Below are positions 14,384-64,000 of a stretch of 64,000 bases of DNA, piece by piece. The DNA lies in the NCBI GenBank assembly GCA_943788755.1, contig CALSRM010000003.1, positions 1,798,001 to 1,862,000 on the forward strand, written 5' to 3'. Each line of letters starts with the position of its first letter. Position 1 is the first letter of the stretch. The notes beneath the pieces were generated by a model. That model was given only the letters and a program-made list of their open reading frames with translations. It was not told the origin of the DNA and did not search any database. Origin of the DNA: an uncultured Flavobacteriales bacterium (GTDB lineage: Bacteria; Bacteroidota; Bacteroidia; Flavobacteriales_D; Parvicellaceae). Made by a program: the position numbers and the translations under genes.

Positions 14384-15094
14384 TTAAAGAACTCTCTTGT
14401 TGCCAACAGAAATTTCTGACCCTTCAGCTAACATAACAGATGTCGGTTGTTGGTGATTTAAAAATTCAAAATCAGCTCCATAGCTTGCTTTAAAATCAAC
14501 ATTAACCCTAGAATCTAATACATTGTAAATTTTCCAAGCTGGATGTTTTACTTCGTATTCATTGGTTTGTGCGTTGTTTATTTTGGTGTAACCCCAGTAA
14601 TGTTCTGTAATAAAATCAGCTTCACTATTTTCGTTAAAAGAAAAAGGAGTGCTTTCAGCATTTACACTAACCGAATTCCAGATACCCTTCAATTTCCAGC
14701 TGTATGCAATGTTTAGTTCGCTATCCTCAGACCAACTATGTTTCATCGGCAGGGTTTGATAAGGTTCTTTGTAGATAGTTCTAGCTACTGCAGTTATTAA
14801 AGGTTTAGGAACCATTTCTTTAATAAAGCCGACACCGCGTCTTACTTCATCGCCATTTTGATGTTTGATGTAGTAACGTAAGTTGACCTCTTCGAAATTA
14901 ATGTGTCCTGGTAATTTGCAGCCTTTTACTTTTGTGTTTAAAAACATAAACCCAACTAAACTGACATAACATTTCCCTTCCCATAAATCTAATTCTGTTT
15001 TATGGGGGAGATATTTTTTTAGAATTTCTGGATCGATTGCATAATTGATAAGAATCAACTTCCTCCATTCAGCGGTGAGAAAAGGTTTTTTCAT
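14384..15094 (-). CDS. DUF2071 (YqjF-like) family protein
   Basis: The 236-residue cytosolic protein begins KPFLTAEWRKLILINYAIDP and continues with YLPHKTELDLWEGKCYVSLV and VGFMFLNTKV, the typical start of the DUF2071/YqjF family. Function is unknown; the fold is thought to resemble acetoacetate-decarboxylase-like beta barrels. Its ATG overlaps the stop of the upstream DCC gene by four bases (ATGA), which means translational coupling. It is convergent with fdhA, with 56 bases between. Confidence 0.8.
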   Translation of the reverse strand: MKKPFLTAEWRKLILINYAIDPEILKKYLPHKTELDLWEGKCYVSLVGFMFLNTKVKGCKLPGHINFEEVNLRYYIKHQNGDEVRRGVGFIKEMVPKPLITAVARTIYKEPYQTLPMKHSWSEDSELNIAYSWKLKGIWNSVSVNAESTPFSFNENSEADFITEHYWGYTKINNAQTNEYEVKHPAWKIYNVLDSRVNVDFKASYGADFEFLNHQQPTSVMLAEGSEISVGNKRVL

Positions 15095-15492
15095 ATGAAT
15101 TTGCTCTTATAGTTAACATTCAGAGGCAATTCGCAAGCTTTTCTTTTAAATATTTTATAGCGCATCTTGGCGATTATATCATAAAAGAAATCTCTGACAA
15201 ATCGAGGAAATATTTTTAATCCGTATATAAATTTTCCTAACCCGCCAAGCAAGTATAGTATTTCAAATACGGCATTTGTTTTAATGAAAGCATTTCCATC
15301 TTTGTGGATGAGAACAACAGAATCTACTTTGTCATTAATATCATGTTTGTCTTGGTAATAAATTCCAGCCATTGACTGCAATGAAGCGAAGCGAAATTGA
15401 TCGTGTTTATCCCGTTTTAGCACAAATTTTACCCAAAAACTGCAGAAAGTGCATTCGCCATCAAAGAGTATAATGTTTTTCTTATTATTCAT
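15091..15492 (-). CDS. DCC-family thiol-disulfide oxidoreductase-like protein (DUF393)
   Basis: The product of about 133 residues carries the family motif DGECTFCSFW close to its N-terminus, with a thioredoxin-like C-x-x-C pair. DCC proteins are small, of unclear physiological role, and often sit with SDR (TIGR01777) and DUF2071 genes. I choose ATG 15492 (MNNKKNIILFDGE) over ATG 15513. The reason is the remnant at 20.2 kb, where the same region is preserved and the upstream SDR reading frame ended right at the equivalent ATG. The 3' end overlaps the DUF2071 gene by four bases. Confidence 0.82.
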   Translation of the reverse strand: MNNKKNIILFDGECTFCSFWVKFVLKRDKHDQFRFASLQSMAGIYYQDKHDINDKVDSVVLIHKDGNAFIKTNAVFEILYLLGGLGKFIYGLKIFPRFVRDFFYDIIAKMRYKIFKRKACELPLNVNYKSKFI

Positions 15493-15593
15493 GGATAAGA
15501 TTATGTAGGCCATGGTAGATTAAGAGCACAAATTTTGCAGAAAAAACATACTTGGAAATCAAAAACCACGAGCCATTTTGGGTTAGTAAATAT

Positions 15594-18500
15594 CTATTTA
15601 AACTGACAAAACTTTTCGGAAGTCCCATCTTTGTAACGAACAATCACAATGCCGTTATAAAATTGATCCACTTCTTGTCCTAAAAGATTTATTCTGCCTA
15701 TTATCTCTTTAAAAGAATCATCTATTCTATTATCAATACTGATGGTGTTTGAATATTCAAATTTACCATCGAAATCGGTTTGTTTTAAACGATAATAATT
15801 AATTGTTTTGAGAATTTTGAAATCGGTTAATTTGTAATTTGTAATTTGTGTAGAAGGAGAAGACCCTTCTTTCGTTCCGACCCATTCAAAGTCGAATCCG
15901 TTATACGATTTCTCTATTGTAAAATAAGCATTGTTTATTTCACTCGCAGTTGTCCAATTCAATATGTTTCTATTGTCCTTTTTCTCTCCATAAAAAGAAA
16001 CTAATTCTATCGGTAAAACATTTGTAGATGAACTACTTGCTAAGGTAAACGGACTAAAAGTACTTACCGCGGAACCAGAAGTAATTAAACCTGATGCATC
16101 CGTCCCCACCGGCGATGCTGTTATCATATCCCAGTCTGTTCCATCAAAATGCGCAAGTCTTAAATCAGCATAGGCTAAGACTGCATTATTCGCTACCCAT
16201 GGAATTGCAATTTTTGCATTTGAAGGTGTACCATCGGTGCCCCTATCTAAATCCCAATATTCATATGAACTAACATGATCTAAATCACCAGAATTGGACC
16301 CATATGGATCTAAAGTTAAGGCTAGGGGAGCATTGGCTTGTAGAAAGTATTCAGCGGTCCAAACAGTAGAGTTTCCCGAGGAAGGTGTAATAGCAATTGA
16401 TTTATATTGAGTTCCATCACCAAGAGGGAAAGTGAATTGTGAAGTAGACTCGGTGGTTTTAATCATCGTTCCAATAACGTGTGATGCATCGGTTCCACCT
16501 GATACAGTAGCAGCAGATGTTAATACTAAATTGTTTGATGATGCATCAATATCTCCTGACGAAAAGGTAATAGATCCATCAATTGAAATTACATCATTAA
16601 GTATGATGTTTCCACCGGAATTATTAATTGTACAATTGTTTAATTCGGCACCTGAAGTTGTCACATCTTCTTGAATTAAAACGTTGTCAAACTGGGCTCC
16701 ATAGTCATTATTACCATAATAATGGAATCTTAGAGAATAGGAGTCAGATGTTGAATTTGAACCTGATAAGGTAGTTTGAGCAGAATACGTCTGATTATCA
16801 ACCGAAGACGTAATATTAATTAGATCTGTACCGACCTGAGTAGCATCAGTTACATTATATAAATAAACTTCAAAATACTGTCCACCGTAATCTCTAACTG
16901 CGTAATTAAAGCTTATATCAAGAGCTGATGTTGTCGGTGAAAATTCGGCTGTAATTATTGTGTTGTCTTGTGTACATGAACTACCATAATATTCGATATG
17001 GGCTCTGTTGCCTGAACATCCTGAACAACTACCTGCGTAAGGAATGTCAGAAGACTCTATTTCCCACTTCTCAAATGTGCAGTCAGCTACGTTTTGATAG
17101 GTAGCAGTAGTGCTTACTGATTCGGTTAAGGAACCTGTAGAAAGACTATTGAAATCTTCTGATACAAGAGTCACTGTTGATGATCCTCCTGTACTACCTT
17201 CATGTGTTACAGTTTGATCACTAGAACCATCAAAAGTTACACTAGATAGAGCGTTACTTACATCTAAACCATCAGTAGCTCCAACTGTAATATTTCCTGC
17301 TACGTTTAAGGCGTAAGTAGACATATCTAATTTACAACCTGCTGTTGTTGATGTTGTTAAATCACCATCAATATTAATTGCTCCTCCAGCTGTTTTAGTA
17401 CCAGCTGTAGAAATAGTTAAATTATAATAATTATCACCAAATACTGTTTGTGTTGCTCCATCGTATTCAACAGTACCCATTTCAGCATCTAAGGTACCCA
17501 AAGAAGTAACTGCTGCGCTTAATATTAGGGTTCCTGAACTATTAGTGAAGTCTATTGTTCCACCTGTGAAATCAGCTGTGCCATCAGCATTAACGGTTGC
17601 GTTATCGATATATAAATTGTCGTTTATATCCATTGTTCCGGTTACTGTAAGTGAATTACTACTAACAGTTAAACTCGCTCCTGAATTAATTGTAAGCCCA
17701 CCTAAGGTCACATCAGAAGTAATAATAGGGGTGTTTCCTGACCCTGAGCTTACATCTGGAATAGTAATATTTTCACTTGTTCCAGGAACTGTTCCTCGAC
17801 TCCAGTTAGATGAAGTGGCCCAAGCTGAACTTGTTGTTCCAGTCCAGTTATTAGGACTGTATTCATAACATCCCATATCAGGACTTCCATCTCGAGTAAC
17901 TCCTAGTATGTCTGCATCTGGACCACCAGAAGTGCCAGCATCAACCGCTGGAGAAGCGCTTGTCAGTGTAAAATCATTACTTGCAGCGTCTGAGAACAAG
18001 GGGTCAGAGGTTGAGTTATTTCCCCCATCAGTATATGAATCTCCACCTGAACCACCATTTAATAAAGAATAGCTTATTGTTAAATCTCCACTATAACCCT
18101 GTATAACTTCATTTCCAGAATCATCAGACTGGAAAATACAATTTTTAGCAGTAACTGTTCCATCTACTTCTAATGCAGTAACATAGTAATCATTTACATT
18201 TGAACTTGTATTTTGGGCAAAGGTTGAATTATAAACACTACCTTGAACATTATATACTGTACAAGAAGCTCCATTAGAAGCACTGTTATCATGGAATAAA
18301 GAATTTTCTAATGTAAATCTACTGGAAACTCCGGAAGAACTTCCCAAATAACTAACATATAAACCACTACCATAATAATAATTGTTATTGTTAGAGAATG
18401 TACACTTTCTAACTGTTACACTATAACCTCTATCAATCATACAAGCTCCATGTGATGATCCAGAAGTAGTAACATCATTATTGTCAAAAGTAGTATTCTC

Positions 18501-19592
18501 TAAAAGGACCGAATAGTCGTAATCATAAGAGTATGAACGAATATCTAAAGCACAACCACCTGAAGCTTCTGCACTAGTATTGTCCGAGAATGTACAGTTT
18601 TTGATTACAACACTGTCGCTGGAAGAAGCTCCTGGGTCATGAAATATGAAAACGGCACCATCATAAATATTGGCGCTTACATAACAACTATTAACAGTGA
18701 CATTTTCCATGACTACCTTATTATCTCTTCCATATGTATACAAAGCTGGCCCCCCTCCATCTTTGAAGTCTCTTATAGTCATATCTTTTATGGAAATATC
18801 TGCACCGTCAGCTGTTACTCTGAAGCAACGTTGACCAGATACATCATCATTGTCTATGATAGTGCCAGCTTCCGAAGTACCCTGAAAAGTAGTGGAATAA
18901 TCAATATCCATGTCGTTTTCGTTATAGGTACCGTCTGCAATTTCTATTCTAGTTTCATTAGCTGTTGTAGCGGTTATGGCAGATGATATTGTTAGTTTCG
19001 GAGCAGATGGATCATTTCCTGAATTCGAATCATCTCCTGTTGTTGCTACATAGAAAACGTAGGTAGTTCCGCTTGTGGTTAATTCACATCCTGAACAGCC
19101 TGATCCTGATCCCATGACTGTGCCAGAACCTGTAACGGTCAGTGTTCCATAAGTGATCATTGTTCCTGTCCCTGAAATTGAAGAACCGTTTCCTGCAGCA
19201 AAATCACCAGTACAAATTAAAGATCCATTTAAGGTTGTTCCTGTGGAGTTATTTCTCACTTCACCAGTAGTACATTTTATCGTTCCTCCTGTAAATATGG
19301 TAACAGTACATCCGTTAAAAAACTCTAGACCATCAGCATGGTCAACGATTAAATATCCGTAAACAAATAATACTCCGTTGTTCCTTACTTCTAGCATCGC
19401 TGAATTTATCGTAACGGTATCACCAGCCGCTATAGTAACAAAATCACCACTACCTATTACTTCACTTGGGGATACTCCCCCCACCCATGTTGCACCTGAA
19501 GTCCAGTTGCCATTAGTTGTTGAAGTTTGGCCCGAAATAACAGCCGCAAATGCCACTAATATAATTGCACAGAAGAGTTTTGTATTTTCCAT
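15594..19592 (-). CDS. Secreted right-handed beta-helix protein with degenerate T9SS-like tail
   Basis: A very large exported protein (about 1332 residues) starting with a signal peptide (MENTKLFCAIILVAFAAVIS-GQ). It is rich in S, T, G, N and D and is built from repeated short beta strands. Residues about 185-560 look like a pectate-lyase-type right-handed beta-helix with repeats such as ITVNSCY/VVIKNCTFSDN, ending near SPAVDAGTSGGPDADILG, a choice-of-anchor Q-like motif. Residues about 575-800 are repetitive strand-rich modules, and 840-980 a jelly-roll-like segment. The last 110 residues (SFYGEKKDNRNILNWTTASE, then IIGRINLLGQEV and GIVIVRYKDGTSEKF) resemble the C-terminal sorting tail seen in some flavobacteria. 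ATG 19592 is preferred to a TTG at 19601. Likely surface adhesin or polysaccharide-binding protein; no catalytic residues recognised. Confidence 0.85.
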   Translation of the reverse strand: MENTKLFCAIILVAFAAVISGQTSTTNGNWTSGATWVGGVSPSEVIGSGDFVTIAAGDTVTINSAMLEVRNNGVLFVYGYLIVDHADGLEFFNGCTVTIFTGGTIKCTTGEVRNNSTGTTLNGSLICTGDFAAGNGSSISGTGTMITYGTLTVTGSGTVMGSGSGCSGCELTTSGTTYVFYVATTGDDSNSGNDPSAPKLTISSAITATTANETRIEIADGTYNENDMDIDYSTTFQGTSEAGTIIDNDDVSGQRCFRVTADGADISIKDMTIRDFKDGGGPALYTYGRDNKVVMENVTVNSCYVSANIYDGAVFIFHDPGASSSDSVVIKNCTFSDNTSAEASGGCALDIRSYSYDYDYSVLLENTTFDNNDVTTSGSSHGACMIDRGYSVTVRKCTFSNNNNYYYGSGLYVSYLGSSSGVSSRFTLENSLFHDNSASNGASCTVYNVQGSVYNSTFAQNTSSNVNDYYVTALEVDGTVTAKNCIFQSDDSGNEVIQGYSGDLTISYSLLNGGSGGDSYTDGGNNSTSDPLFSDAASNDFTLTSASPAVDAGTSGGPDADILGVTRDGSPDMGCYEYSPNNWTGTTSSAWATSSNWSRGTVPGTSENITIPDVSSGSGNTPIITSDVTLGGLTINSGASLTVSSNSLTVTGTMDINDNLYIDNATVNADGTADFTGGTIDFTNSSGTLILSAAVTSLGTLDAEMGTVEYDGATQTVFGDNYYNLTISTAGTKTAGGAINIDGDLTTSTTAGCKLDMSTYALNVAGNITVGATDGLDVSNALSSVTFDGSSDQTVTHEGSTGGSSTVTLVSEDFNSLSTGSLTESVSTTATYQNVADCTFEKWEIESSDIPYAGSCSGCSGNRAHIEYYGSSCTQDNTIITAEFSPTTSALDISFNYAVRDYGGQYFEVYLYNVTDATQVGTDLINITSSVDNQTYSAQTTLSGSNSTSDSYSLRFHYYGNNDYGAQFDNVLIQEDVTTSGAELNNCTINNSGGNIILNDVISIDGSITFSSGDIDASSNNLVLTSAATVSGGTDASHVIGTMIKTTESTSQFTFPLGDGTQYKSIAITPSSGNSTVWTAEYFLQANAPLALTLDPYGSNSGDLDHVSSYEYWDLDRGTDGTPSNAKIAIPWVANNAVLAYADLRLAHFDGTDWDMITASPVGTDASGLITSGSAVSTFSPFTLASSSSTNVLPIELVSFYGEKKDNRNILNWTTASEINNAYFTIEKSYNGFDFEWVGTKEGSSPSTQITNYKLTDFKILKTINYYRLKQTDFDGKFEYSNTISIDNRIDDSFKEIIGRINLLGQEVDQFYNGIVIVRYKDGTSEKFCQFK

Positions 19593-19608
19593 AATTTTCA
19601 ACTTCTAT

Positions 19609-19983
19609 TTATTCGTTAGCTCTACTTTTTATTTTTTCCTCTTGATACAGTACCTTTCTCTTTTCTTTACACAGTTTTATTAGTTCTCTGTAGTTTTCAA
19701 ATTTAATCTGAAAATCTGTTGTTTGATCAACTGACAATTTTTCTTTTCTTTCCTCCATATCATTTTTGAGATGCTCAGCTCTCCATGATAAATGATTTTG
19801 AGCAAGGTCAGCATCTTCAATTGTTCTAAGAAAAGCCAATTCAAAAGAACTGAAATCTTTCATTTTTTTTTCAACAAAATTATCTAAGTCAGCAGTGAAT
19901 TTTTGCTGTTCTGCTGTTTGAGCCAAAATATTAAGATTGGCTATGAAAAATAAGCAAATCAAAATTCTTTTCTTCAGTTGCAT
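19609..19983 (-). CDS. Small exported helical protein of unknown function
   Basis: A 124-residue protein with a clear signal peptide (KKRILICLFFIANLNILAQ). The mature part is entirely helical and charged, with heptad-like spacing (KFTADLDNFVEKKMKDF, HLKNDMEERKEKLS). It ends 16 bases before the ATG of the giant beta-helix gene, so the two are probably one operon. It might be a periplasmic partner or chaperone of that protein, but this is inferred from position alone. I do not recognise the family. Confidence 0.65.
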   Translation of the reverse strand: MQLKKRILICLFFIANLNILAQTAEQQKFTADLDNFVEKKMKDFSSFELAFLRTIEDADLAQNHLSWRAEHLKNDMEERKEKLSVDQTTDFQIKFENYRELIKLCKEKRKVLYQEEKIKSRANE

Positions 19984-20204
19984 AGTCTTTATTTATTACT
20001 TTATTATAAGTAAATGTAATTAATTGTTTCATGATTTTAAAATAAAAATAAACAAAAACACAACAGAATTAATCTGATAATAAAGTTATTTCAGCAAATG
20101 TAACAAGTGTAATTTAATCCGATTATTAAATTTATTTGCAATTTAGATAGAGTTAGCTTTTTCTTTATCTGTCCAACCAATGATTAATTGGTAATTTACA
20201 CGGA

Positions 20205-20410
20205 TTCGCCATCAAAGAGTATAATATGTTTATTCTTATTCTTATTCATGGATAAGATTATGTTGGGCTGGTCCTAAGTTTTCGAATTTAAAAATAAAAC
20301 CAGCTTCAAGCAAACGTTTTGGTTGAACACATCGACTTTTTAGTATTAATTGTGATTCTGTTCTAAGAAAAAAAGTGCCAATAATTAACATCCATATACG
20401 CGAATCAATA
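20205..20410 (-). pseudogene. Remnant of an SDR (TIGR01777/YfcH-like) gene end plus duplicated start of the DCC gene
   Basis: On the minus strand, a frame through about 20410-20245 reads LILKSRCVQPKRLLEAGFIF followed by KFENLGPA and a stop. This is the C-terminal signature of TIGR01777/YfcH-type epimerases (DUF1731). The stop overlaps an ATG that begins MNKNKNKHIILFDGES and then ends. That is the first 15 or so codons of a DCC protein, closely matching the intact DCC gene at 15.49 kb. The DNA at 20205-20268 is an imperfect direct copy of 15454-15510. I read this as the broken left part of an ancestral SDR-DCC-DUF2071 operon. Confidence 0.65.
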
Positions 20411-20554
20411 GCTAATAGGTACTTCAGTGAATTCTTGGCAATACGATCTGAGCTCTTTTCTGAATGCAGATTGGAGCTTCACACTTTATTCAAGTGCTAA
20501 AAAGTAATTATCATTGAAAAAGGCTTACTTTAGACATTCATTAATATACATACT

Positions 20555-21178
20555 ATGATCAAAAATATACTTTATCTATTGATAACTTTCTTTATTTCCA
20601 CAAGCTTTTTAGCACAAACATCACATAATGTGGATGTTGCTAGTAATTCTTTTACGCCTTCGGCCTTAACAATTGAGGAAGGGGACACAGTTATTTGGAC
20701 AAATACAAGTGGTTCTCACAATGTAAATGGAACAATAACAACTTTTCCTTCAAACCCCGATAGTTTTGGCAGCGGAGCAGTTGCTTCAGGAGGATGGACC
20801 TATTCTTATGTATTTACAACTGCTGGGAGTTATGATTATCAATGCGACCCGCATGCTGGATTGGGGATGACTGCTACTATAACTGTTAGTGAGACTATTA
20901 CCTCAATTAATGAATCTAAAATTGAAAATGGAACGAATGTTTATCCAAATCCATTTACTAGTTATTTTACAATTGCGTTAAATAAAGAGTTGATAAATGA
21001 TAATTCTTCAATTGAGTTTATTTTATATGATTTATTAGGTAATCAAGTTCATAGTATAGCAAACGTGAACGCTGAGTTAACTAAAATTGAAACAAATCAA
21101 TTATCTAATGGTATTTATATTTTTTCATTCAAATCGAACGGAAAAACACTTAGAACAGGAAAGTTGACGAATAACTAA
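20555..21178 (+). CDS. Secreted plastocyanin-like cupredoxin with T9SS sorting domain
   Basis: The 207-residue product has a signal peptide (residues 1-20, ending SFLAQ), then a single cupredoxin domain. The type 1 copper ligands are all visible: H55 (GSHNVNG), C97 and H100 (YQCDPH) and M105 (GLGM). Residues about 125-207 form a Por/T9SS type A sorting tail (NVYPNPFTSYF, then LYDLLGNQ and SNGIYIFSFKSNGKTLRTGK). It therefore is an exported, probably surface-attached blue copper protein for electron transfer or copper binding. It stands alone on the plus strand. Confidence 0.88.
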   Translation: MIKNILYLLITFFISTSFLAQTSHNVDVASNSFTPSALTIEEGDTVIWTNTSGSHNVNGTITTFPSNPDSFGSGAVASGGWTYSYVFTTAGSYDYQCDPHAGLGMTATITVSETITSINESKIENGTNVYPNPFTSYFTIALNKELINDNSSIEFILYDLLGNQVHSIANVNAELTKIETNQLSNGIYIFSFKSNGKTLRTGKLTNN

Positions 21179-21429: not shown

Positions 21430-22537
21430 ATGACTTTAAAGACGGTAAGATTTAACACAAAAGATAAGCCTGAGTTTTATAAGGTTTTGAGAAAGCGGGT
21501 AAATGGTTATTTCAAAGAAAATAACATTTCAAAATTTGCAAACGCAAGAATGAAATGGAAAACAGCGATTATTTTAATTGCCTTTTTCACACCATTGGTA
21601 TTATTGTTAGCAGGCTTGGTTCCTAATCCTTACATTCAAGTATTACTTTGGATCTTTATGGGGATAGGTATGGCTGGCGTTGGGCTAACCATAATGCACG
21701 ATGCAAATCATGGCTCTTACTCTAAAAACCAGATGGTTAATAAATTATTAGGAATGACTATTAATTTTGCAGGAGGTTATGCCTTAAACTGGAAAATTCA
21801 GCACAATGTTTTGCACCATACTTATACCAATATATCAGATATGGATCAAGATATTGACACGGGTAAGCTAATGCGCTTTTCACCAAGACAACCGCATTTT
21901 AAATTTCAAAAGTTTCAAATTATTTATGCATGGTTTTTTTATGGTCTTATGACTTTCTATTGGGTAATAGCGAAGGATTTTATTCAAATAGCATCTTTTA
22001 AGAAGGATGAGTTATTAAAGGCGCAAGGAAAAACATTAGGAATGGCCTTACTTGAAATATTTGCGGTAAAAATTGTTTACTTATTTATATTTGCTTTTTT
22101 ACCACTTTACTTTATGGATATTTCTTTCGGATTTTGGTTCTTGTGTTTTTTCTCTAAACATTTTGTTGCCGGATTAATTTTAGCATTAGTATTTCAACCG
22201 GCTCATGTAATTGAAGATACGGAGTTTCCAGAGCCCAGATGCAGAGGGTAGTTTAGAAAATAATTGGGCCATTCATCAATTTAAAACGACTGCTAATTTC
22301 GCGCCTAAGAATAATATTTTAGGATGGTATATGGGTGGTTTGAATTATCAAGTGGAGCATCATATGTTTCCAACAATTTGTCACATACATTATCCAAAGA
22401 TTTCTAAAATTGTAAAAGCTACTTGCGAAGAATACGGGGTGCCCTATTATTCAAAAGATACATTTACAGATGCTGTGGTTAGTCATGTAAAACTGTTGGC
22501 GAGATTAGGAAAAGGAGAGTCTGTTGCGCATACTTAA
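21430..22537 (+). pseudogene. Membrane fatty-acid (acyl-CoA/front-end type) desaturase, frameshifted
   Basis: The gene encodes an integral-membrane di-iron desaturase with all three histidine boxes: HDANHGSY, HNVLHHTYTN and QVEHHMFP. The Q in the third box is typical of front-end/linoleoyl-CoA desaturases. The reading frame breaks near 22240: the first frame ends in PEPRCRG and stop, while the +1 frame continues as DAEGSLENNWAIHQF up to 22537. One surplus base, probably in the CCC at about 22236-22238, explains it. Joined length is about 368 residues, normal for the family. The lesion removes the third histidine box, so a zero-frame product would be inactive. A sequencing or assembly error is possible, but the next gene is also damaged. 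Confidence 0.85.
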
Positions 22538-46999: not shown

Positions 47000-47069
47000 T
47001 TTTCTAATTAATGCTAACGTTCCAGCTAAACCATACAAAAATAAACCATTGTGATTTATATCAATTTTA

Positions 47070-47458
47070 TTTATGAAATAAATAAAAAGAATTAAAGTGT
47101 AGTTTTGTAAGCGTGAATAATATGAAATAAATGCTTCCACCGAAAAAACAACATCCCAAAGTTAAAGCAATCTTACATCCTCGTAATAAGCACCGAGAAC
47201 GATATGATTTTAAATTATTGTCGGAGGCGTGCCCTGATTTAAAACAGTTTGTCAATCTGAATGATTATGGGGATGAATCAATTGATTTTTTCAATCCAGA
47301 AGCTGTTAAAATGCTAAATAAAGCATTGTTGATGCATTTTTACGATGTAGTAGAATGGGATATTCCTGAAGGCTATTTGTGTTCGCCAATTCCGGGTAGA
47401 GCAGATTACGTGCACTATGTTGCAGATTTATTGGGCAGAGATAGAAAGAGTATTTCCA
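47070..47458 (+). repeat. Direct repeat, copy 1: promoter and 5' third of rlmF
   Basis: About 389 bases match 50669-51057 with only a handful of differences (for example GCGTGAAT against GCGCGAAT, CCACCGAA against CCACGGAA, GCACTATGTTGC against GCATTATGTCGC). The repeat contains a TAGTTTTG promoter box (47100-47107), the leader and about 108 codons of rlmF. High identity including the leader shows that the duplication is recent. Confidence 0.9.
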
Positions 47459-48549: not shown

Positions 48550-49962
48550 TTAGTTACCTGAAACTATTGTTACTTTTTGAGCAATAGGGTTGCTGCTATA
48601 ACCATTTAAAACTAAAACGTAGGTTCCATTAACTATATCAGTAGGTATTTCCATTTTATTCTTTACATTTAAACTGCTGAACACTATCCTGCCTTCTAAA
48701 GAATACAATTGTGCAGTCCAACCTTTAGCAGGTGAATTATAAAAATGAATTGTACCATTATCCACTAGTGTATTAATTACTATAGCCTGGTTAGGCTTAA
48801 TTGAAAGTAATACATCTAAATACAATGGATCATAAACATGAATAAGCGTTCCAAACCGATCACCATCAGGTCTTGTTTCACCACAAATAAGTTTTCCTCC
48901 AGATAATGCTGGAATAATATCAAATCCTATATCAATAGATTCAAATCCATAAAATGCAGTTGAGAATATACTTCCTGCTGTGTCTGCAACTCCTACAATA
49001 ATATCATTTGTTTGGTTAATTGCATTCCAACCATAACCAGTATAATAGAATTGATTTCCATTTATAGGTGATAAATCAAATGCGGATTCCGCTTTATTAG
49101 TATGTGGCAAGTATTTGGTTCCGAGAATATTTCCAGAAGTTGTGTCAAATCTTGATATAAAAGGGTCGTAAAATAAAGTAGTCGCTGTAGACGATTCACC
49201 TGTTACCCAAAGTTCATTGGATGCGATTTCAAGATTTTGACACCCTGTATTATAAGGTGTAACAATAGTGTCACACCATCTTTGAGCACCTGACAAACTA
49301 AATGATGCAACAAAAAAACTATATTCAAAATTGGCTTTTTGCTTATCATTAGATACATAAAAATTATTTCCATCTGTAACAACATCCTGAGAATAGCTGT
49401 TTTGAATTGTACTAATTTCTTTCCGCCAAACTTCATTTCCATTAGTGTCTATAACCCAAATAAATGCGTTGTTGTTATTGTTGTTTAGATCTGATATATA
49501 ACCTACAGAGCATATTTTTCCATTTGCAGCTGTGACTCCTCTAAAACTTGTTTCCTTAGGAAGTTCATCAAGTACAGATTTCCAAATTAAATTGCCCGCC
49601 ATATCAACTTTCAACACCAACCCAGAAGATAAACCAGTTATTGAATCCCACCGCTGTCCAGCAAGATATAAATACTCATCCATATATGCCATATCAAACG
49701 TATATTCGGAATGTGGACTTTGATAATCCACATTCCATTGTTCTTCACCATACTGATCGAATAGATATATTACAGGTTCTGCTTTTGCTAAATCATCCTC
49801 CTGAAAGCCACTTACGTAAATAGTAGAATCAGTGTGCTGGTAAATACCGCCGCCTTGAGTTGCATAACGACTATCTCCAAATTGAATAAAAAACCCTTGA
49901 CTAAATCCTGTAATGCTAATAAGCAATGAAGATAAGACGATAATATAACTTAGTTGGATCAT
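48550..49962 (-). CDS. Exported beta-propeller-like protein with C-terminal T9SS-like tail
   Basis: The 470-residue protein has a signal peptide (residues 1-21, ending SITGFSQ). The body is a repeated four-stranded pattern of the kind GNEVWRKEI, GNLIWKSVLDEL, GEEQWNVDYQ and GGGIYQHTDSTIYVSGFQ, as in PQQ/WD-like or SBBP-type beta propellers. The last 75 residues (FYNSPAKGWTAQLYSLEGRI, NGTYVLVLNGYSSNPIAQKV) are a sorting-domain-like tail, though the usual YPNP motif is replaced. It lies inside the region bracketed by the two rlmF copies. Likely surface-located; binding partner unknown. Confidence 0.8.
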   Translation of the reverse strand: MIQLSYIIVLSSLLISITGFSQGFFIQFGDSRYATQGGGIYQHTDSTIYVSGFQEDDLAKAEPVIYLFDQYGEEQWNVDYQSPHSEYTFDMAYMDEYLYLAGQRWDSITGLSSGLVLKVDMAGNLIWKSVLDELPKETSFRGVTAANGKICSVGYISDLNNNNNNAFIWVIDTNGNEVWRKEISTIQNSYSQDVVTDGNNFYVSNDKQKANFEYSFFVASFSLSGAQRWCDTIVTPYNTGCQNLEIASNELWVTGESSTATTLFYDPFISRFDTTSGNILGTKYLPHTNKAESAFDLSPINGNQFYYTGYGWNAINQTNDIIVGVADTAGSIFSTAFYGFESIDIGFDIIPALSGGKLICGETRPDGDRFGTLIHVYDPLYLDVLLSIKPNQAIVINTLVDNGTIHFYNSPAKGWTAQLYSLEGRIVFSSLNVKNKMEIPTDIVNGTYVLVLNGYSSNPIAQKVTIVSGN

Positions 49963-50668
49963 AGCATGTGTTTATTATTTCACAAGGTATCGAATTGTAT
50001 CTAAAATAACTATTAGTTTATTTATTATCTTGTTATTAATACTCTAACAAACTACAGTAAGACTCTTATAGCAACTTTCATTTGAATTAGGATGGCTTTA
50101 CCTATAGTTCTGGTAACCCAATTATCCCGGTTACAATTCATAAATTTTTCAAACGATTCTCTCTCGCCTGTTTCTGATTCCCAATAAATTTTTATTTACC
50201 AACTTAAAAATTCTTTCTTTTATTCACCTAAGCGTGTAAAATAATCCTTGACTTTGTCTTCATTAGTTTTATTCCAAAGGATTTTTCATATTAATTTGTT
50301 TTATGACTATGAGAGAAGTATATATATGTGCGATTAATACTGTTAGACTTTAATATGCAGCTAACATAATATTAGCATATCTATGAATCCATTAACAATT
50401 CTCTAGCAGAAAGAGGGGAGAAGCTTGATGCTTTTCGTTTAAAACCATTACTCTGAAACAAATAATGTTTACGGGTTTTCACTTTTTTTTACATTTACTA
50501 AAACAGTCCATTTAAACCAAGTAAAATCGATCCCAATTCTTATCGTGAGTGTTTTAGGTTATTCAGTTATTGTTGTACAGGATTTTTATGCTAGTTCTTT
50601 ATAATTGTGAACTCTAGTTGGGCAGCCATAATCAAATTTGACAGTAGTTATTTTTATTCCAAAATTAT
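49963..50668. other. Long non-coding stretch with gene remnant
   Basis: About 700 AT-rich bases. On the minus strand 50052-50194 is open for 46 codons and reads IYWESETGERESFEKF, then NRDNWVTRTIGKAIL and ends. It has normal amino-acid composition and looks like the C-terminal part of a lost protein that I do not recognise. The second copy of the 30-base repeat is at 50520-50549. No complete gene or RNA gene was found. Confidence 0.45.
50520..50549 (+). repeat. 30-base direct repeat, copy 2
   Basis: Matches 48319-48348 with three mismatches and lies about 150 bases before the complete rlmF repeat unit. Confidence 0.55.
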
Positions 50669-51057
50669 TTTATGAAATAAATAAAAAGAATTAAAGTGTA
50701 GTTTTGTAAGCGCGAATAATATGAAATAAATGCTTCCACGGAAAAAACAACATCCCAAAGTTAAAGCAATCTTACATCCTCGTAATAAGCACCGAGAACG
50801 ATATGATTTTAAATTATTGTCGGAGGCGTGCCCTGATTTAAAACAGTTTGTCAATCTGAATGATTATGGGGATGAATCAATTGATTTTTTCAATCCAGAA
50901 GCTGTTAAAATGCTAAATAAAGCATTGTTGATGCATTTTTACGATGTAGTAGAATGGGATATTCCTGAAGGCTATTTGTGTTCGCCAATTCCGGGTAGAG
51001 CAGATTACGTGCATTATGTCGCAGATTTATTGGGCAGAGATAGAAAGAGTATTCCCA
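50669..51057 (+). repeat. Direct repeat, copy 2: promoter and 5' third of rlmF
   Basis: The partner of 47070-47458, here joined to a complete gene. It carries the TAGTTTTG box at 50699-50706, 23 bases before ATG 50730. Confidence 0.9.
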
Positions 51058-51689
51058 AAGGAAAGAAAGTAAAATGTTTAGATGTTGGCGTAGGTTCAAA
51101 TTGCGTTTACCCAATTATAGGAAACAAAGAATATGGTTGGTATTTCATTGGTTCAGAAACAGACTCTATTGCAATTGAGTCCGCAAACAAAATAATAGAA
51201 GCTAATCCTTTAGTAAAGGGAGTTGTTGAAATTAGACATCAGCCAAATGCGAATAACATTTTTTACGGGATAATTAAAAATGGAGAACGAATTGATATTA
51301 CAATTTGTAATCCGCCGTTTCATGCATCGCTAGAAGAAGCTCAGGCCGGAACTAAACGTAAGTTAAAAAACCTAAAAGGAAAAAAGGCTGATAAGACTGT
51401 TCTAAATTTTGGAGGTCAAAATAATGAACTGTGGTGTGAAGGTGGCGAAAAGAAATTTATACATGCAATGATTCGCCAAAGTAAATCTTTTACTAATCAG
51501 TGTTTATGGTTTACAACCCAAGTAGCTAAACAAACAACATTGAAAAGTATTTATGCAGCTTTAGAGTCAATTGGAGTCTTAGAGGTCAAAACAATTGAGA
51601 TGGGACAAGGAAATAAAAAAAGTAGAATTGTTGCTTGGACGTTTCTTAATAAAGAACAGCAATCAAATTGGTTTAATCCAAAAAAATAA
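50730..51689 (+). CDS. rlmF: 23S rRNA (adenine-1618-N6)-methyltransferase RlmF
   Basis: The 319-residue enzyme matches the RlmF family (m6A1618 in E. coli 23S rRNA). It has the N-terminal [12 protein letters not shown] block, the SAM-binding motif [11 protein letters not shown] at about 118-128 and the catalytic NPPF at 194-197 ([14 protein letters not shown]), and the late block [15 protein letters not shown]. Full length. The first 109 codons and the promoter occur a second time at 47.1 kb. It is followed by the acyl-ACP desaturase gene after about 250 bases. Cytosolic, acts on the large subunit rRNA. Confidence 0.93.
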
Positions 51690-54129: not shown

Positions 54130-54300
54130 GTGTCTTTGAAAACGTATTACCCTCCACAGTATCAAATAGCTTACAAAACCTATAAAATTTGAGGTTGGGA
54201 TAACAGTAAATTGACGATGAATGCGTTAGCCTAAATAAGGCTGGAGATAAGTGTAATCAAATAAAAGCATAAAAAAATTCGCTTTGTTCATTATTAGTGC

Positions 54301-54308
54301 TATTTTTG
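54301..54308 (+). promoter_or_regulatory. -7 box of first cold-shock gene
   Basis: TATTTTTG matches TAnnTTTG and ends 20 bases before ATG 54329. A TTTG at 54283-54286 is a closer than usual -33 candidate. The leader (TAATAAATTATTATA before ATG) is shared with the second cold-shock gene, where the box is the variant TATTTTCG. Confidence 0.5.
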
Positions 54309-54328
54309 CGGTCTAATAAATTATTATA

Positions 54329-54520
54329 ATGAAAAAAGGAACAGTAAAATTTTTTAATGACACCAAAGGATTTGGTTTCATTGTTGACGACGAAACAAAA
54401 ACAGAGTATTTCGTACACGTATCAGGATTAATCGATGAGATTAAAGAAAATGATACAGTTGAATTCGAATTACAAGAAGGTAAAAAAGGTTTAAATGCTG
54501 CAAACGTAAAAGTTTGTTAG
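54329..54520 (+). CDS. Cold-shock domain protein (copy 1)
   Basis: A 63-residue CspA-family protein with RNP1-like KGFGFIV and RNP2-like YFVHVSGL motifs on the five-stranded beta-barrel, shorter than CspA itself (about 70 residues). It binds single-stranded RNA/DNA and acts as an RNA chaperone. The second copy at 56.5 kb differs at only a few residues (for example I to V in the RNP1 motif). The gene has its own promoter and a strong terminator, so it is monocistronic. Confidence 0.93.
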   Translation: MKKGTVKFFNDTKGFGFIVDDETKTEYFVHVSGLIDEIKENDTVEFELQEGKKGLNAANVKVC

Positions 54521-54540
54521 GATAAATAATTTTATTTTTG

Positions 54541-54574
54541 AAAAAAGCTATCTCAATGAGGTAGCTTTTTTTTT
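54541..54574 (+). terminator. Intrinsic terminator of cold-shock gene copy 1
   Basis: AAGCTATCTC and GAGGTAGCTT form a hairpin with loop AAT and a following run of T. The hairpin sequence is almost the same as at the end of copy 2. Confidence 0.85.
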
Positions 54575-54737
54575 GCTTCATAGAATAGATTGTGACTTTC
54601 CTTACATGATTTATTAGGTTTATCATCACGTTACTTTTGAATGTAACTTTATGTTATACAGGATTTTGTGTAATTTCTTGTAACTATAGGTAGGGTAAAA
54701 GGTTGCAAATGCGGTATATACATAAATCTTAATCATA

Positions 54738-56360
54738 ATGATACTATATTTCACAAAACGAATATTTATTTTACTACTGTTTATGGGCGCTTCCATAAAC
54801 CTTAATGCTCAGGTTTGGACCAAAACGTTCACTGCAGGAGGATATGATTCAAATGGAAATTTCCTTGGAGGATCTGAAGTTCTGCAGCTGGTTAGTCATA
54901 AAAATAAGCTGTTTGCATCTGTTGGTTATTGGGAAGATGTTAACAATATATGGTACGGTGGAACAAACAGTAGCATTGGTTGGGGGCAAATAAATCGCTT
55001 GGATAATCCTGCTGGTAATTGGCAGGAAGATTTGACTCTTGGCACGAATTATCTGCGACCAGAAACTCTTAAACAAATTATTTTCACAAAAGATCAATTT
55101 GGGAATCTACTATCATCACCAGATACCGTCTTGATTGCAGCCGGTTATGCTCCAAACTATATAACAAGTAGCGTTAAGGTGAAGAGTTTTGCAAGGAATG
55201 ATTTAAATGGTACCTGGGAAGAAAGTTTGATAGTACAAGGAAACTTCCCGGCCGGAGAGAACTACTCTGTGAGAGATGTCCAAATTTACAGTGACCAACA
55301 GACTGGTTTGGAATATATTTTTGCAACGGTTGGAACACAAGGAATTTTTAAAGGGAAATACAATCCATCAATTCCAGGAAAAATTGATTGGATTTCTGCG
55401 CCTGAACATGGTCCTTTAGATATAAGGCCATTGGGGATATCAGTAGCGAATGATACTTTGTATTTTTCTTCAGGAAACAAATTGTATAAACGTATTGATG
55501 GTGTCACTGCAACATATGTAATTGCACATGACTTTAGTGACTTGAGTACAAATATTAATTCTGCTGTTGGAGGTATTCGTGGATTGACAGTGATTGATAA
55601 TCCAAGTGCCAATGGTAAAGCGTTATTATTGATGTGGTGTCCTAATGGTCAGTCTCAAGGAATTATTTATCGTCTCGAACCAGATTGGAATGGGGGTTTT
55701 AATCGTATTTATGAAGCTAAATTGTCCTTGCTAGTAGAAGATTTTTTGTTAGAAACCACTGCGAATTATATTCTAGGAGCGTACAATGAGTTTTACAATT
55801 ATATTGATCCTGTGAGTTCTGAGTCCATCCATATGATAGGTTTTGAGGTAAATATATCGGGAGGAGGTTATCCGACATGGAACGGCTACTATAAAGGTGG
55901 CTTGTTTGCTAAAAGAGATGCTAACGGTCAATATTCTATTGAAGAAATAAACGGCCCTATAGGGATAAATGATCCTGCTTTGGTTGCTAATAGATGTTAT
56001 GTGTCATCTCCCTTTTTGAATGAAAACGCTATTTACTTTGGTGGTTTTGACCCAAATAGTTTTACTTCTACAAGTATGGCATGGGTATATAAAAAAGAGT
56101 ATCAAGCAAATGTTATAAGTGATTTTCTTGAAAATGAAAATAGTTTAGTTATCTACCCTAATCCAGCCAAAAATCAACTGAACCTGGATTTTGAAGTTTC
56201 GGCAAATCATGAATTCAATATTATAAATATTTTTGGAGAAATAGTCGTGTCTGGATTGATAAATGCAGCGAATATAAGTATTGATATTTCTTCACTGCCG
56301 CCTAATATTTATTTTCTCAGAATTGCCAATAAGACACTGAAGTTTATAAAAATAGATTGA
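54738..56360 (+). CDS. Exported T9SS type A sorting domain protein between the cold-shock genes
   Basis: The 540-residue protein has a signal peptide (residues about 1-24, ending GASINLNAQ). The body (residues 25-455) is a beta-propeller-like domain with repeats such as HKNKLFASVGYWEDVNNIWY and LIVQGNFPAGENYSVRDV; some segments look like choice-of-anchor or PKD-free propellers. The tail (NSLVIYPNPAKNQLNLDF, IINIFGEIVVSG, LPPNIYFLRIANKTLKF) is a clear Por/T9SS type A domain. The gene is in the same direction as its neighbours but is flanked by cold-shock genes with their own terminators. Ligand unknown. Confidence 0.86.
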   Translation: MILYFTKRIFILLLFMGASINLNAQVWTKTFTAGGYDSNGNFLGGSEVLQLVSHKNKLFASVGYWEDVNNIWYGGTNSSIGWGQINRLDNPAGNWQEDLTLGTNYLRPETLKQIIFTKDQFGNLLSSPDTVLIAAGYAPNYITSSVKVKSFARNDLNGTWEESLIVQGNFPAGENYSVRDVQIYSDQQTGLEYIFATVGTQGIFKGKYNPSIPGKIDWISAPEHGPLDIRPLGISVANDTLYFSSGNKLYKRIDGVTATYVIAHDFSDLSTNINSAVGGIRGLTVIDNPSANGKALLLMWCPNGQSQGIIYRLEPDWNGGFNRIYEAKLSLLVEDFLLETTANYILGAYNEFYNYIDPVSSESIHMIGFEVNISGGGYPTWNGYYKGGLFAKRDANGQYSIEEINGPIGINDPALVANRCYVSSPFLNENAIYFGGFDPNSFTSTSMAWVYKKEYQANVISDFLENENSLVIYPNPAKNQLNLDFEVSANHEFNIINIFGEIVVSGLINAANISIDISSLPPNIYFLRIANKTLKFIKID

Positions 56361-56529
56361 TTATTGTAACCAAATCTTATTTGAATAAACGATATTAACA
56401 TTTTTATGAATACGTCTTTCAAGTATGTCGTTCTTTTAAATCATAAATAAAGGTCCGTAAAATATTATTATTAAAAAAGGAACATTTTTCCGAAATATTA
56501 TTATTTTCGCTCCCTAATAAATTATTATA

Positions 56530-56721
56530 ATGAAAAAAGGAACAGTAAAATTTTTCAACGACACCAAAGGATTTGGTTTTGTTGTAGACGAAGAAGACAA
56601 AAGTGAATATTTTGTACACGTATCAGGTTTAATCGATGAGATCAAAGAAAATGATGTAGTTGAGTACGAATTGCAAGAAGGTAAAAAAGGATTAAATGCA
56701 GTAAACGTAAAAGTTTGCTAA
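56530..56721 (+). CDS. Cold-shock domain protein (copy 2)
   Basis: A 63-residue CspA-family protein with KGFGFVV and YFVHVSGL. It matches copy 1 except for a few substitutions (DDETKTE against DEEDKSE, DTVEFE against DVVEYE, NAANV against NAVNV), and the 15 bases before the ATG and the hairpin after the gene are also conserved. A tandem-type duplication with later insertion, or retention, of the T9SS gene between the copies explains this. Confidence 0.93.
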   Translation: MKKGTVKFFNDTKGFGFVVDEEDKSEYFVHVSGLIDEIKENDVVEYELQEGKKGLNAVNVKVC

Positions 56722-56740
56722 TATAAATTCATTTATTTTT

Positions 56741-56774
56741 GAAAAAAGCTACCTCATGGAGGTGGCTTTTTTTA
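56741..56774 (+). terminator. Intrinsic terminator of cold-shock gene copy 2
   Basis: AAGCTACCTC and GAGGTGGCTT form a hairpin followed by a T run. It lies 19 bases before the stop of the convergent tsaD gene and may serve both. Confidence 0.85.
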
Positions 56775-56792
56775 TGCCGCGAAAAATATATG

Positions 56793-57827
56793 CTAAAATT
56801 TCATTCTTGCAGAAGGTGTAGTGCTTTGGTCCGAAACATCTCCCTTTTCTAGTTTGTACAACCCCGTAATAGCAATCATTGCTGCATTATCAGTACAATA
56901 TTCAAATTCAGGAATAAAAGTATTCCAACCTTCTTGCTTGCCGGTTTTTGCTAGTTTTTTTCTCAAACAACTATTTGCTGAAACACCTCCTGCAATAGCA
57001 ACATCTTTTATGTTGTAATGGGCAACAGCCTTTTTTAATTTGATAAATAAATAGTTAACGATATGCTCCTGGTATGAGGCGCAAATATCGTTTAGATTTT
57101 GTTGAATGAATTTATCGTTCAACTTTTCTTCTTTTTGTAAAAAATATAAAAACTGGGTCTTCAGTCCACTGAAGCTGTAGTTAAATTCTCCTACTTTAGG
57201 AAATGTAAAAGTAAACTTTGCTGCGTCACCCGCTTTACTTAGTTCATCTACAAGTGGCCCTCCAGGATATGGAAGTCCTAAAAGTTTGGCCGCCTTGTCG
57301 AAAGCTTCTCCAGCTGCATCGTCGATTGTCTCACCAATCAACTCCATACTTAGATGGTCTTTTACTAATACGATTTGCGTATGTCCACCACTTACTGTTA
57401 AGCAAATGAATGGGAAATTTGGCGTGGGTTTGTGATTTTCCTTTTTCTGAATAAAGTGTGCAAGTATATGTCCTTGCATATGGTTTACATCAATTAAAGG
57501 AATATTTAACCCCATTGCCATTGATTTTGCAAATGAAGTTCCAACAAGCAAAGATCCAAGCAACCCAGGACCTTTTGTATATGCAATTGCTGTAAGCTCA
57601 TTTTTAGTAATACCCGCCTGTTTCAAGGCTGTATCAACTACAGGTAAAATATTTTGTTGGTGCGCTCTGGAAGCAAGTTCCGGAACAACACCTCCATATT
57701 TGGTGTGAACATCTTGGCATGCAATAACATTCGACAGGATTTCTTCGTTTTTAATTATTGCGGCAGAAGTATCGTCGCAACTTGATTCTATACCAAGAAT
57801 GATGCTATATTTGTTTGTTACACTCAT
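56793..57827 (-). CDS. tsaD: tRNA N6-adenosine threonylcarbamoyltransferase TsaD
   Basis: The universal enzyme that transfers the threonylcarbamoyl group to A37 of ANN-decoding tRNAs. The 344-residue product contains the ASKHA start ILGIESSCDDTSAA, the metal-binding H116-x3-H120 (NHMQGHILAH), TVSGGHTQIV and the late nucleotide-binding IAGGVSANSCLRKKL. Length is typical. The start codon is 13 bases from the start of tamB on the opposite strand, so their promoters must overlap the partner gene. Confidence 0.97.
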   Translation of the reverse strand: MSVTNKYSIILGIESSCDDTSAAIIKNEEILSNVIACQDVHTKYGGVVPELASRAHQQNILPVVDTALKQAGITKNELTAIAYTKGPGLLGSLLVGTSFAKSMAMGLNIPLIDVNHMQGHILAHFIQKKENHKPTPNFPFICLTVSGGHTQIVLVKDHLSMELIGETIDDAAGEAFDKAAKLLGLPYPGGPLVDELSKAGDAAKFTFTFPKVGEFNYSFSGLKTQFLYFLQKEEKLNDKFIQQNLNDICASYQEHIVNYLFIKLKKAVAHYNIKDVAIAGGVSANSCLRKKLAKTGKQEGWNTFIPEFEYCTDNAAMIAITGLYKLEKGDVSDQSTTPSARMKF

Positions 57828-57840
57828 TTAATGAAATAAA

Positions 57841-60800
57841 GTGCTCAAAACTATCAAAAAAATAGGGTTTTACTCCATAAGAACGGTAGCAAATCTATTT
57901 GAAATAGTTTTTTTCTTCAGTCTTGTGCTTATATTTTTTATTCGGTCTGATTGGGTGCAAACGCAGCTTGCGGTAAGTTTGGCAGAATTTTATTCTTATG
58001 AATTGGATACTGATGTCTCGATTGAGAGTGTTAAAATCAATGGTTTTGAATATGCCGAAATTAATGGTTTCTATATTGGTGATAGGCATAATGATACACT
58101 ATTGTATATCCCGCATATCAATGGATCTTTGGCCGATTTAAGTGTAGAAAGTAAGTTTGTTATTTTGAGTGGTATTAACGCTGAAGGTGCGCGTTTGAAA
58201 ATTCAAAAGTATACGGGAGAACCAGAATTCAACTTGCAATTTCTTATCAACTATTTTTCCTCAGAAGAAGATGAATCATCCAGCTTTACAATGAAAATAA
58301 AGGAGGTTAACTTAAATAAATCACACATAACCTATTACGATTGGAACAAGGAACTAAAAGAATATGGGGTGGATTATGATCATCTAGATTTGTGGGATGT
58401 TTCTGGAAAAATAATTGAATTTAGAAACAGAGGAGATGTTACTACCATGAATGTTGAAGGTCTCGCTCTGACCGATAGGAGTGGTTTTCGTTTAGATAGT
58501 CTGAATGCGCACATATTGGTTAATTCCAGAAAGATTAAATTGGATAAATTATTGGTTAAAACACCTTGTTCAAATGTTGTCACTAAAGGTGTTGAATTGA
58601 ATTTTTCAGGCCATCAAAACTTTTCGAATTTTGTAGAAGATGTTCGACTATTTGCTAATGTTGAAATGTCTTCTATTAACATGAAAGATATATCTTATTT
58701 CGTGCCTTCTATGGAAGCATACGACTTTTCGATTAATTTAATTACAGAGATAGAAGGTCCTATTAATGATTTAAATTTAAGCAGTTTATTTATCAGTGTT
58801 TCTGAAGGAACCTATTTCGATGGTGATATTTCTTTAAAGGGATTACCGAATTTGGATAGTACACAAGTAGCTCTAAACATTAATAGGTTGCAGACATCCA
58901 AAATGGATTTGGAAACAGTAGATTTGATGAAGTTTGGTTTAATGGAAAATGTTGACATTCCTAGACAAGTGTCTAGCCTTGGAGGGATTTCTGTAACGGG
59001 GAATTCTAATGGTTATTATCATGATTTTGACATATCCTTAGATATAATTACAGATATAGGGGCTGCCACTGGTAGTTTTGCATGCAATATTGATACCGCT
59101 AAAGAATTAAATTATGATGGTTATTTGAGTACCGCAGGAATCGATTTATCGACCTTAACAAACTCAAGTGTATTTGGTAATTTTACTTCAGATTTAACTA
59201 TTAAAGGGAAAGGGTTAACAATTGATGACTTAGATGTTGTGGTAGATGGTCATTTGAATAAATTTGATTTGCAAGGATACACCTATGATGAAGTAAACAT
59301 TAATGGCCATTTTAAAGAAAAATCTTTTGATGGTTTTTTAAATGTTGCCGATCAAAATATAGATTTAAATTTTGAAGGAAATATTGATTTAAACAAAGCA
59401 CCTTATGACTTTAGCTTTGCCACAGAAGTAATAAAAGCTAATCCTTATGATTTGCATTTAATCAATACGCGAGAAACTGCTTCTGCTTGTTTTAATCTTA
59501 TGGCAGAAGGAAGTGGAACTAATATAGATGATTTTACCGGGTTGGTTTATTTTACGGATGTAGCTTATTTTCAAGAGGGAACTGATTATTCTTTTGAATC
59601 TATTATGCTTGAATCAAAAGGAAATACAAATTACCATACCATAGATATTTTCTCAGAATTCGCAAACATTTCAATGGAAGGAGAATTTAATCTAGATTCC
59701 ATTAAAAATAGTCTTTCTTACTTGGGAGCAAAGGTATTGCCATCATTGTTTCCAAATGCTGAAAGTTTTTACTTAACGCACGAAGAATTTAATTTGGGTG
59801 TTCAAATAAATGACCTTTCCAAATTGACAGAACTTTTTTTTCCTAGGTTACGGATAGCACCTGCAACAGCTCTTAGCTGTGATTATGTGAGTGAAGATGA
59901 TGCTTTGGAGTTGTTTGTAAAATCGGATTGGATAGAGTATGGCGATATGCGTTTTGCTGGTATTCAGTTGGATACCACACAAAGAATATCTGGACTCGAC
60001 CTTTTTTATACCTTAGACTTAACAATTGATTCATTATTCGTTTCAGAAGAAATTTACATCCAAAATGTTAACTTGATTGCAAAAGCTTACGAAGATAATA
60101 TAGGTACAAATATTTATTGGTCCGCAGATGACTCTAGTTATTGGGGAAAAATATATGGTGATGGCTATATAATGAGTTCGAGTGAATTTGAATTTGATAT
60201 TCATCCTTCTGAGATATTTTCGAGTGTTGGAATGTGGCATATTGACCGAGATGCTCATGTTCGCGTGGATTCGACGGCATTACATCTAGATAAAATAATT
60301 GCAAAAAATGAAGATCAATTGATCAAGTTTGATGGCATCGTTTCACAAATTCCTGGAGATAAAATAAATTTTGAAATAGCAGGGTTTAACTTAAATAACA
60401 TTTCTGCCTTAACTAATTTAGATACAATGCAATTAGATGGCTCTTTGTTCTTAGATGGATATGCTTCAAACCTTTACGAGGATGGTTATTTATCCGCTTA
60501 CTCCTTAATAGAGGACTTAAGTATAAATGGTTATTATACGGGTAATATTGAAACAAGTACATCCTGGAACGCCAACGAACAAAGGATGGAACTAATTGGG
60601 GAGTTAACAAGATCGAATGATGTATCGGATTTTGTGATTTCAAAAGGCCATTATTATGTGAATAGACCTGATAATAATTTGGACTTCCAGTTTGATTTTA
60701 AAAATACTGACTTAACATTTGTAAATGCTTTTATGCCTGAAGGAGTGGCTTTAGAAGGTAATACAAAAGGTGCTGTTTATCTTAAGGGAGAGGTGAGTAA

Positions 60801-62394: not shown

Positions 62395-62431
62395 TCCACA
62401 AAATAAAAGTTCCGGCTCGTTAGAAAGGCCT

Positions 62432-63529: not shown

Positions 63530-63532
63530 TTT

Positions 63533-64000
63533 TTATTTTAAATTATTTATTCTAATCAATGCTTCTCGCAAAATCTCTGTTGTGTTACATAATGAAACAC
63601 GGATGAACTTATTTCCACTTGAGCCAAATATGAATCCTGGAGTGATAAATACTTTTGCGTTATAAAGAATTTCATTTATCCAAATTTCGGCACTATCAAA
63701 TTTATCAGGTATGCTTGCCCATACAAATAAACCAACGTTATCCTTTGAGTAAGAACAATCCAATTTGTCTAAAATTTCCCAGACTACTTTTCTTCTTTCA
63801 GAATAGGTAAAATTGAGTTGTTCAATCCAATCTTTAGAAACATTTAAGGCACTGATTGCAGCTTTTTGAATAGGAAGGAACATTCCAGAGTCCATATTGC
63901 TTTTTACCTTCAATATGGATTGAATTAATTCTGTTTTTCCAGTAACCCAACCAATCCTCCAGCCAGACATATTATGTGATTTACTCAATGAGTTGAGTTC
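63533..64000 (-). CDS. PLP-dependent aminotransferase (class I/II), partial at window edge
   Basis: The open frame continues past position 64000, so only the C-terminal about 155 residues are present. The segment SLSKSHNMSGWRIGW includes the PLP-binding lysine, and GLFVWASIP and SGNKFIRVSLCNTTEI are typical of the aspartate/aromatic aminotransferase group. In this operon setting it most likely transaminates prephenate or phenylpyruvate-type acceptors. A TTG or ATG codon near 63988 is internal, not the start. Confidence 0.85.
   Translation of the reverse strand, partial: ELNSLSKSHNMSGWRIGWVTGKTELIQSILKVKSNMDSGMFLPIQKAAISALNVSKDWIEQLNFTYSERRKVVWEILDKLDCSYSKDNVGLFVWASIPDKFDSAEIWINEILYNAKVFITPGFIFGSSGNKFIRVSLCNTTEILREALIRINNLK

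Follow-up and report, generated by a model that had tools for sequence, protein, structure and literature searches.

Insertion with long target duplication was first described from strains of Helicobacter pylori and is often tied to restriction-modification genes (PMC1643837, PMC3031569); the original description is that of Nobusato et al. (2000, Gene 259:99-108), as cited in PMC1643837, PMC3031569 and PMC3154945. In Streptococcus pneumoniae, transformation produces tandem duplications (merodiploidy) of 100-900 kb via repeats in donor and host (PMC3784515). Here, we analyzed a window of 64,000 nucleotides (G000:C3:1798001-1862000) from the genome of an uncultured Flavobacteriales bacterium of the Parvicellaceae (G000), and compared it with three congeners (G001, G002 and G003) and with four further operon loci of the Flavobacteriales (L063, L064, L068 and L086). 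The architecture of one locus in this window matches insertion with long target duplication: the insert is absent in G002, the duplication of 55-70 bp is single there, transposon ends are lacking, and the target genes are intact.

Insertion with target duplication at the SDR/DCC junction

At all four further Flavobacteriales loci, genes for an SDR, a DCC and a DUF2071 protein follow one another in the order SDR-DCC-DUF2071, abutting or overlapping. The L064 SDR passes the curated TIGR01777 cut-off, and the SDRs of L063, L064 and L068 carry a C-terminal DUF1731. Because these loci keep the three genes intact, we conclude that an ancestral SDR-DCC-DUF2071 operon existed, as a first-pass annotation of this DNA had proposed. 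The locus in G000 has the same gene order, the same families and overlapping junctions (its DCC stop overlaps the DUF2071 start), but its SDR gene is a remnant and its operon is split by a cassette (Table 1).

Table 1. Features of the split operon and its cassette, in window coordinates.
Feature	Position	Strand	Remarks
DUF2071 gene, intact, last of the operon	14384..15094	-	Pfam PF09844, E 9e-58
DCC1-like thiol-disulfide oxidoreductase gene, intact, right-hand copy	15091..15492	-	Pfam PF04134, E 1.5e-25
Repeat copy A	15453..15509	-	Last ~20 nt of SDR gene and start of intact DCC
Possible fragment of first DCC copy, nt ~45-52 and 63-74	15525..15545	-	18/21 identical to DCC
Relic of the terminator that follows home-array beta-helix paralogues	15538..15582	-	Post-stop sequences of seven paralogues aligned
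Beta-helix exported protein, 1332 aa, main cargo	15594..19592	-	NCBIfam NF041518, E 5e-7; weak Pfam DUF5123
Small partner, 124-aa exported coiled-coil-like protein	19609..19983	-	In G000 and G001 only
Cassette left flank (66 bp)	20138..20203	-	No detectable relative
Repeat copy B	20204..20266	-	SDR gene end and first 40 nt of DCC (dead stub)
Decayed C-terminal remnant of TIGR01777 SDR gene	20242..20470 (right end approximate)	-	Also in G002, in part in G001

Copies A and B repeat a single SDR/DCC gene junction in the same orientation and lie within 1-2 bases of where imperfect copies of the DCC start had first been placed. Ungapped, they are 89% identical between 15453-15490 and 20204-20241 and 88% identical between 15476-15509 and 20233-20266; a gapped alignment gives 87% over 70 bp (E = 5e-12, self-comparison of 7.2 kb). 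On the minus strand, each copy crosses the overlap of the SDR stop codon with the DCC start codon, an overlap that the first-pass annotation had also named. The SDR-tail part of copy A matches the remnant beyond copy B, and none of 1000 shuffles matched as well. 5′ of copy A lies only the final part of the SDR end, followed by the relic of the beta-helix gene's terminator.

The SDR remnant beyond copy B aligns to TIGR01777 positions 245-290 (E = 8.6e-4) and is 51% identical to an intact-operon SDR over 57 residues (E = 3.7e-12), bearing out its initial assignment as a TIGR01777-type C-terminus. G002 has the same C-terminal remnant, with the front of the gene gone (its 36 aligned residues are 61% identical to the L063 SDR), and G001 has a shorter trace of it. 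As the remnant is common to G002 and, in part, to G001, the decay of the SDR gene predates the insertion. This contradicts the first-pass annotation, which had the decay follow the insertion, and rules out decay as its result.

In G002, the desaturase gene, SDR remnant, DCC and DUF2071 stand in a row in mid-contig, with a single SDR/DCC junction and with the beta-helix gene absent from this site. When aligned to G002, the left and right flanks of the insert both cover the same 55 bp (G002:C2:102721-102775), which constitute the duplicated target. Because G002 offers an empty site and four loci an intact operon, we conclude that about 4.7 kb were inserted with duplication of the target, as had been suggested from the letters of the window alone. 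That the cassette is such an insertion into an already damaged operon is well supported by these sequence comparisons. The first-pass annotation had named two findings that would speak against it, relatives with the beta-helix gene in another place and an unrelated sequence at 20.2 kb; the former is found in G001, one gene over, while at 20.2 kb the window has the operon junction. DCC and DUF2071 were not found in G003, whose assembly is 82% complete and so uninformative for the insertion site.

We estimated the age of the duplication against a between-species dS of 0.5-1.0. Of 54 core positions, compared by eye in the alignment, 4 differ between copies A and B, and the two have bases in common that differ in G002 and G001; were the duplication as old as the species split, such a pattern would have a probability of 3e-4 to 8e-9. 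The G000 duplication is relatively young compared with the species split, although this dating rests on about 54 bases and the divergence between these genomes is uneven. Identity between G000 and G002 along the window falls into blocks of 74-98%, a patchiness that likely reflects exchange between species. One block, at window 56428-64000, is 97.8% identical over 7.6 kb, suggesting that exchange there was recent.

Content, ends and putative source of the cassette

Between the two copies lie the beta-helix gene and its small partner, just as first described. The beta-helix protein contains a choice-of-anchor Q stretch (NCBIfam NF041518). Its structure model is of low confidence (mean pLDDT 53, pTM 0.65), and the top structural matches of that model are right-handed beta-helices (such as PL6 lyases, AlgE epimerases and tailspikes), none with E < 0.001. 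Pfam recognized no anchoring domain in the protein, and a search of solved structures by sequence gave no match. As a predicted right-handed beta-helix carrying this stretch, the protein fits polysaccharide lyases and adhesins equally well, and the surface adhesin of the first-pass annotation is a putative one. Of 399 genomes from the order, two (G000 and G001) contain the small partner, and no other home for it was found in this set.

At another locus, G000, G002 and G003 carry a tandem array of beta-helix paralogues that share the C-terminal part of the cargo (G000:C2:218000-226400, G002:C13:149400-156300 and G003:C4:16100-20300). In all three, the array is a variable set of beta-helix and fibronectin-type exported proteins with one common C-terminal region and broken copies, flanked by an aminotransferase gene and a conserved gene for a 368-aa exported protein. 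Aligned with the seven paralogues, the terminator relic of the cassette is whole in G000, and only its first arm is present in G001. Judging by the related genes and the terminator they have in common, this array is a likely source of the cargo gene. The cargo has GC contents of 0.37 and 0.30, around the contig mean of 0.35, and thus shows no sign of recent foreign origin in its base composition. G000 and G001 have mosaic beta-helix genes, dS varying between 0.12 and more than 2 along their length.

We also inspected the segment for remnants of mobile elements, a check that the first-pass annotation had proposed. No transposase or integrase was found among the genes of the insert, and neither transposon or integrase ends nor inverted ends were present at its borders. 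A DNA transposon or insertion sequence would carry a transposase, end in inverted repeats and leave a short target duplication of fixed length, a set of features that is not seen here; as for an integrase-mediated island, the insert lacks an integrase and the duplicated target differs between G000 and G001. The cassette did not enter by transposition of an element with its own enzyme.

Collectively, our data make it probable that loss of the SDR gene was followed, on the branch to G000, by insertion of the cassette at the front of DCC, with duplication of the target by recombination. In this account, the SDR-DCC-DUF2071 operon was first stripped of the greater part of its SDR gene; the cassette, about 4.6-4.7 kb long and comprising the small exported protein, the beta-helix exported protein, its own leader region and the terminator relic, was inserted later. 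With the target duplicated, the SDR remnant runs on the left into a dead 40-nt DCC stub, and the right side has the final bases of the SDR gene ahead of a complete DCC-DUF2071 pair. DCC and DUF2071 stayed whole because the target was duplicated on insertion. The most likely mechanism would be recombination, either illegitimate or unequal, such as may occur with incoming DNA in replication or transformation, and the donor would presumably be related to the beta-helix gene array at the other locus of these genomes.

One insertion or two

The cassette of G001, again the small partner with the beta-helix gene, is located between DCC and DUF2071, on the opposite side of DCC from that of G000; the two small partners are 62% identical and the two beta-helix proteins 72%. 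On one side of it, G001 has a complete DCC and then a decayed 5′ stub of DUF2071, which matches the start region of DUF2071 on the same contig at 26 of 36 bases, ungapped (that region itself aside, no other of 37,332 positions exceeds 21 matches). To its right are 24 bases of the DCC end and then a complete DUF2071, and no fragment of DUF2071 or DCC was found on this side beyond the 24-nt DCC tail. The duplicated DCC/DUF2071 junction is 75% identical over 52 bp (E = 2.5e-4, self-comparison). With 13 of 52 positions differing and a T*mu of 0.19, against 0.06 in G000, the G001 duplication looks older than that of G000, although these counts are small. A single recent insertion in the G000 lineage does not explain this cassette one junction away.

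Read alone, each of the two genomes displays a complete event. This is consistent with two independent insertions of the cassette kind, one at the SDR/DCC junction in G000 and one at the DCC/DUF2071 junction in G001, each with a duplication of 50-60 bp. The two also differ in apparent age, in left flank and in right end, and inserts cluster here, the cupredoxin gene at 20555-21178 being a further insertion found only in G000. We hold this account tentatively, as it demands that one rare cassette (its small partner being so nearly unique in the order) arrived twice in one operon by coincidence. Gene-end duplications are rare, so two neighboring insertions of one cassette would be either non-independent or a striking coincidence. 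If there was instead one ancestral insertion, then it would have duplicated about 0.5 kb (the SDR end, the whole of DCC and the DUF2071 start); the left DCC copy would then have disappeared from G000, the right one from G001 and, through recombination between the copies, the whole insert from G002, with gene conversion keeping the G000 copies alike until recently. Such a history would explain why the cassettes lie on opposite sides of DCC and why the stub in each genome comes from exactly the gene adjoining the cassette, the 5′ end of DCC in G000 and, in G001, that of DUF2071 together with the 24-nt DCC tail. It also avoids two independent insertions within 400 bp, which are improbable a priori for inserts this rare. 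However, we looked for a DUF2071 stub in G000 and could detect none, though 60 neutral bases might be unrecognizable at this divergence; gene conversion is required for the youth of the G000 copies; no known genome has two full DCC copies; and the cassette ends differ in how much of the terminator relic they keep. We regard one ancestral insertion as possible but rather doubtful, and favor two events by a narrow margin.

Immediately to the right of the terminator of the beta-helix gene, G000 has a candidate DCC fragment that carries G000-specific bases (p about 0.004) and begins about where the stub stops (nt 45 versus nt 40). Its identity as part of the first DCC copy is suggestive only, but it would point to an event more complex than plain target duplication. 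It is consistent with a cassette that broke DCC near nt 40-45, after which unequal recombination with an intact allele restored DCC-DUF2071 and the rest of the broken copy was lost; tandem duplication by alternative pairing in transformation is known (PMC3784515). Such a sequence of events seems unlikely to us, as the fragment comprises about 20 bases and G001 has no matching one. Less probable still is that the small partner and beta-helix gene form a moving unit that enters overlapping gene junctions and duplicates 50-60 bp without an enzyme of its own. The presence of two DCC starts might also reflect two paralogous DCC genes, one of them decayed, with no insertion. This we consider barely credible, given that G002 has one DCC start and no cassette, that copies A and B share an SDR tail, and that their repeat core is nearer to each other than to any relative. 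We also considered the raised dS of DCC between G001 and G002 (0.70 versus 0.21 for DUF2071) as a sign of paralogy, but rejected it, as the value is not clearly high beside those of other genes (0.36-0.62).

Related duplications and comparison with known systems

Across 1.66 Mb of G000, we found five candidates for gene-end duplications around inserts, three of them with a clear stub and two of those three in the window; a comparison set of 1.01 Mb from other Bacteroidota contained two candidates. With three clear cases in the G000 sequence and two candidates in the comparison set, there is no lineage-wide flood of such insertions, and the first-pass statement that the locus shows how this lineage gains surface adhesin genes generalizes too far.

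A direct duplication at window 47038-47458 and 50634-51057 (96% over 424 bp) covers the upstream sequence and about the first 120 codons of the gene for an RNA methyltransferase (Methyltransf_10, 50730-51689). Between these copies is a gene for an exported protein (48550-49962, minus strand), which the corresponding G002 site lacks; the architecture is the same as at the G000 cassette, with a 5′ stub of the host gene, an exported-protein gene and the intact host gene. A further gene that has a type IX secretion tail (54738-56360) lies between direct copies at 54259-54590 and 56460-56791, which are 81% identical over 332 bp; in G002 the two copies adjoin each other without that gene. The third clear case is a 207-bp direct duplication (84%) of a gene end around a 1.3-kb segment at G000:C3:1261414-1263153. 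The cupredoxin-type gene, which has a type IX secretion tail and is absent from both G001 and G002, was inserted separately, with the SDR remnant on one side and the desaturase gene on the other. In G000, a frameshift splits this fatty acid desaturase gene (21430-22537); G002 has it split by a different frameshift, and in G001 the gene is whole. The frameshifts are either sequencing errors or real decay.

With an empty site and an intact ancestral operon, the locus is a clean comparative example of how a large exported-protein gene can be gained inside an operon without destroying it. This kind of insertion is already known, and the interesting part is its mirror image in the congener G001, where the cassette at the next junction poses the choice between junction targeting and one insertion with reciprocal gene loss.

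Among the described systems, pneumococcal merodiploidy is alike in that unequal crossing-over with incoming DNA duplicates the sequence around a junction, but its duplications span 100-900 kb, whereas 55-70 bp remain in G000 (PMC3784515). In homology-facilitated illegitimate recombination, foreign DNA likewise enters through a homologous joint at one end and an illegitimate one at the other, but this process alone does not predict a direct duplication of the target (PMC3240628). The Helicobacter insertions share with the G000 locus a gene-bearing insert that is absent from a related genome and has no transposon, as well as long, variable direct duplications that were found by comparing related genomes. 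Their cargo is mostly restriction-modification genes, whereas here a flavobacterial operon has received a beta-helix exported protein and its small partner; and, unlike in the Helicobacter cases, a congener carries the cassette at the neighboring junction.
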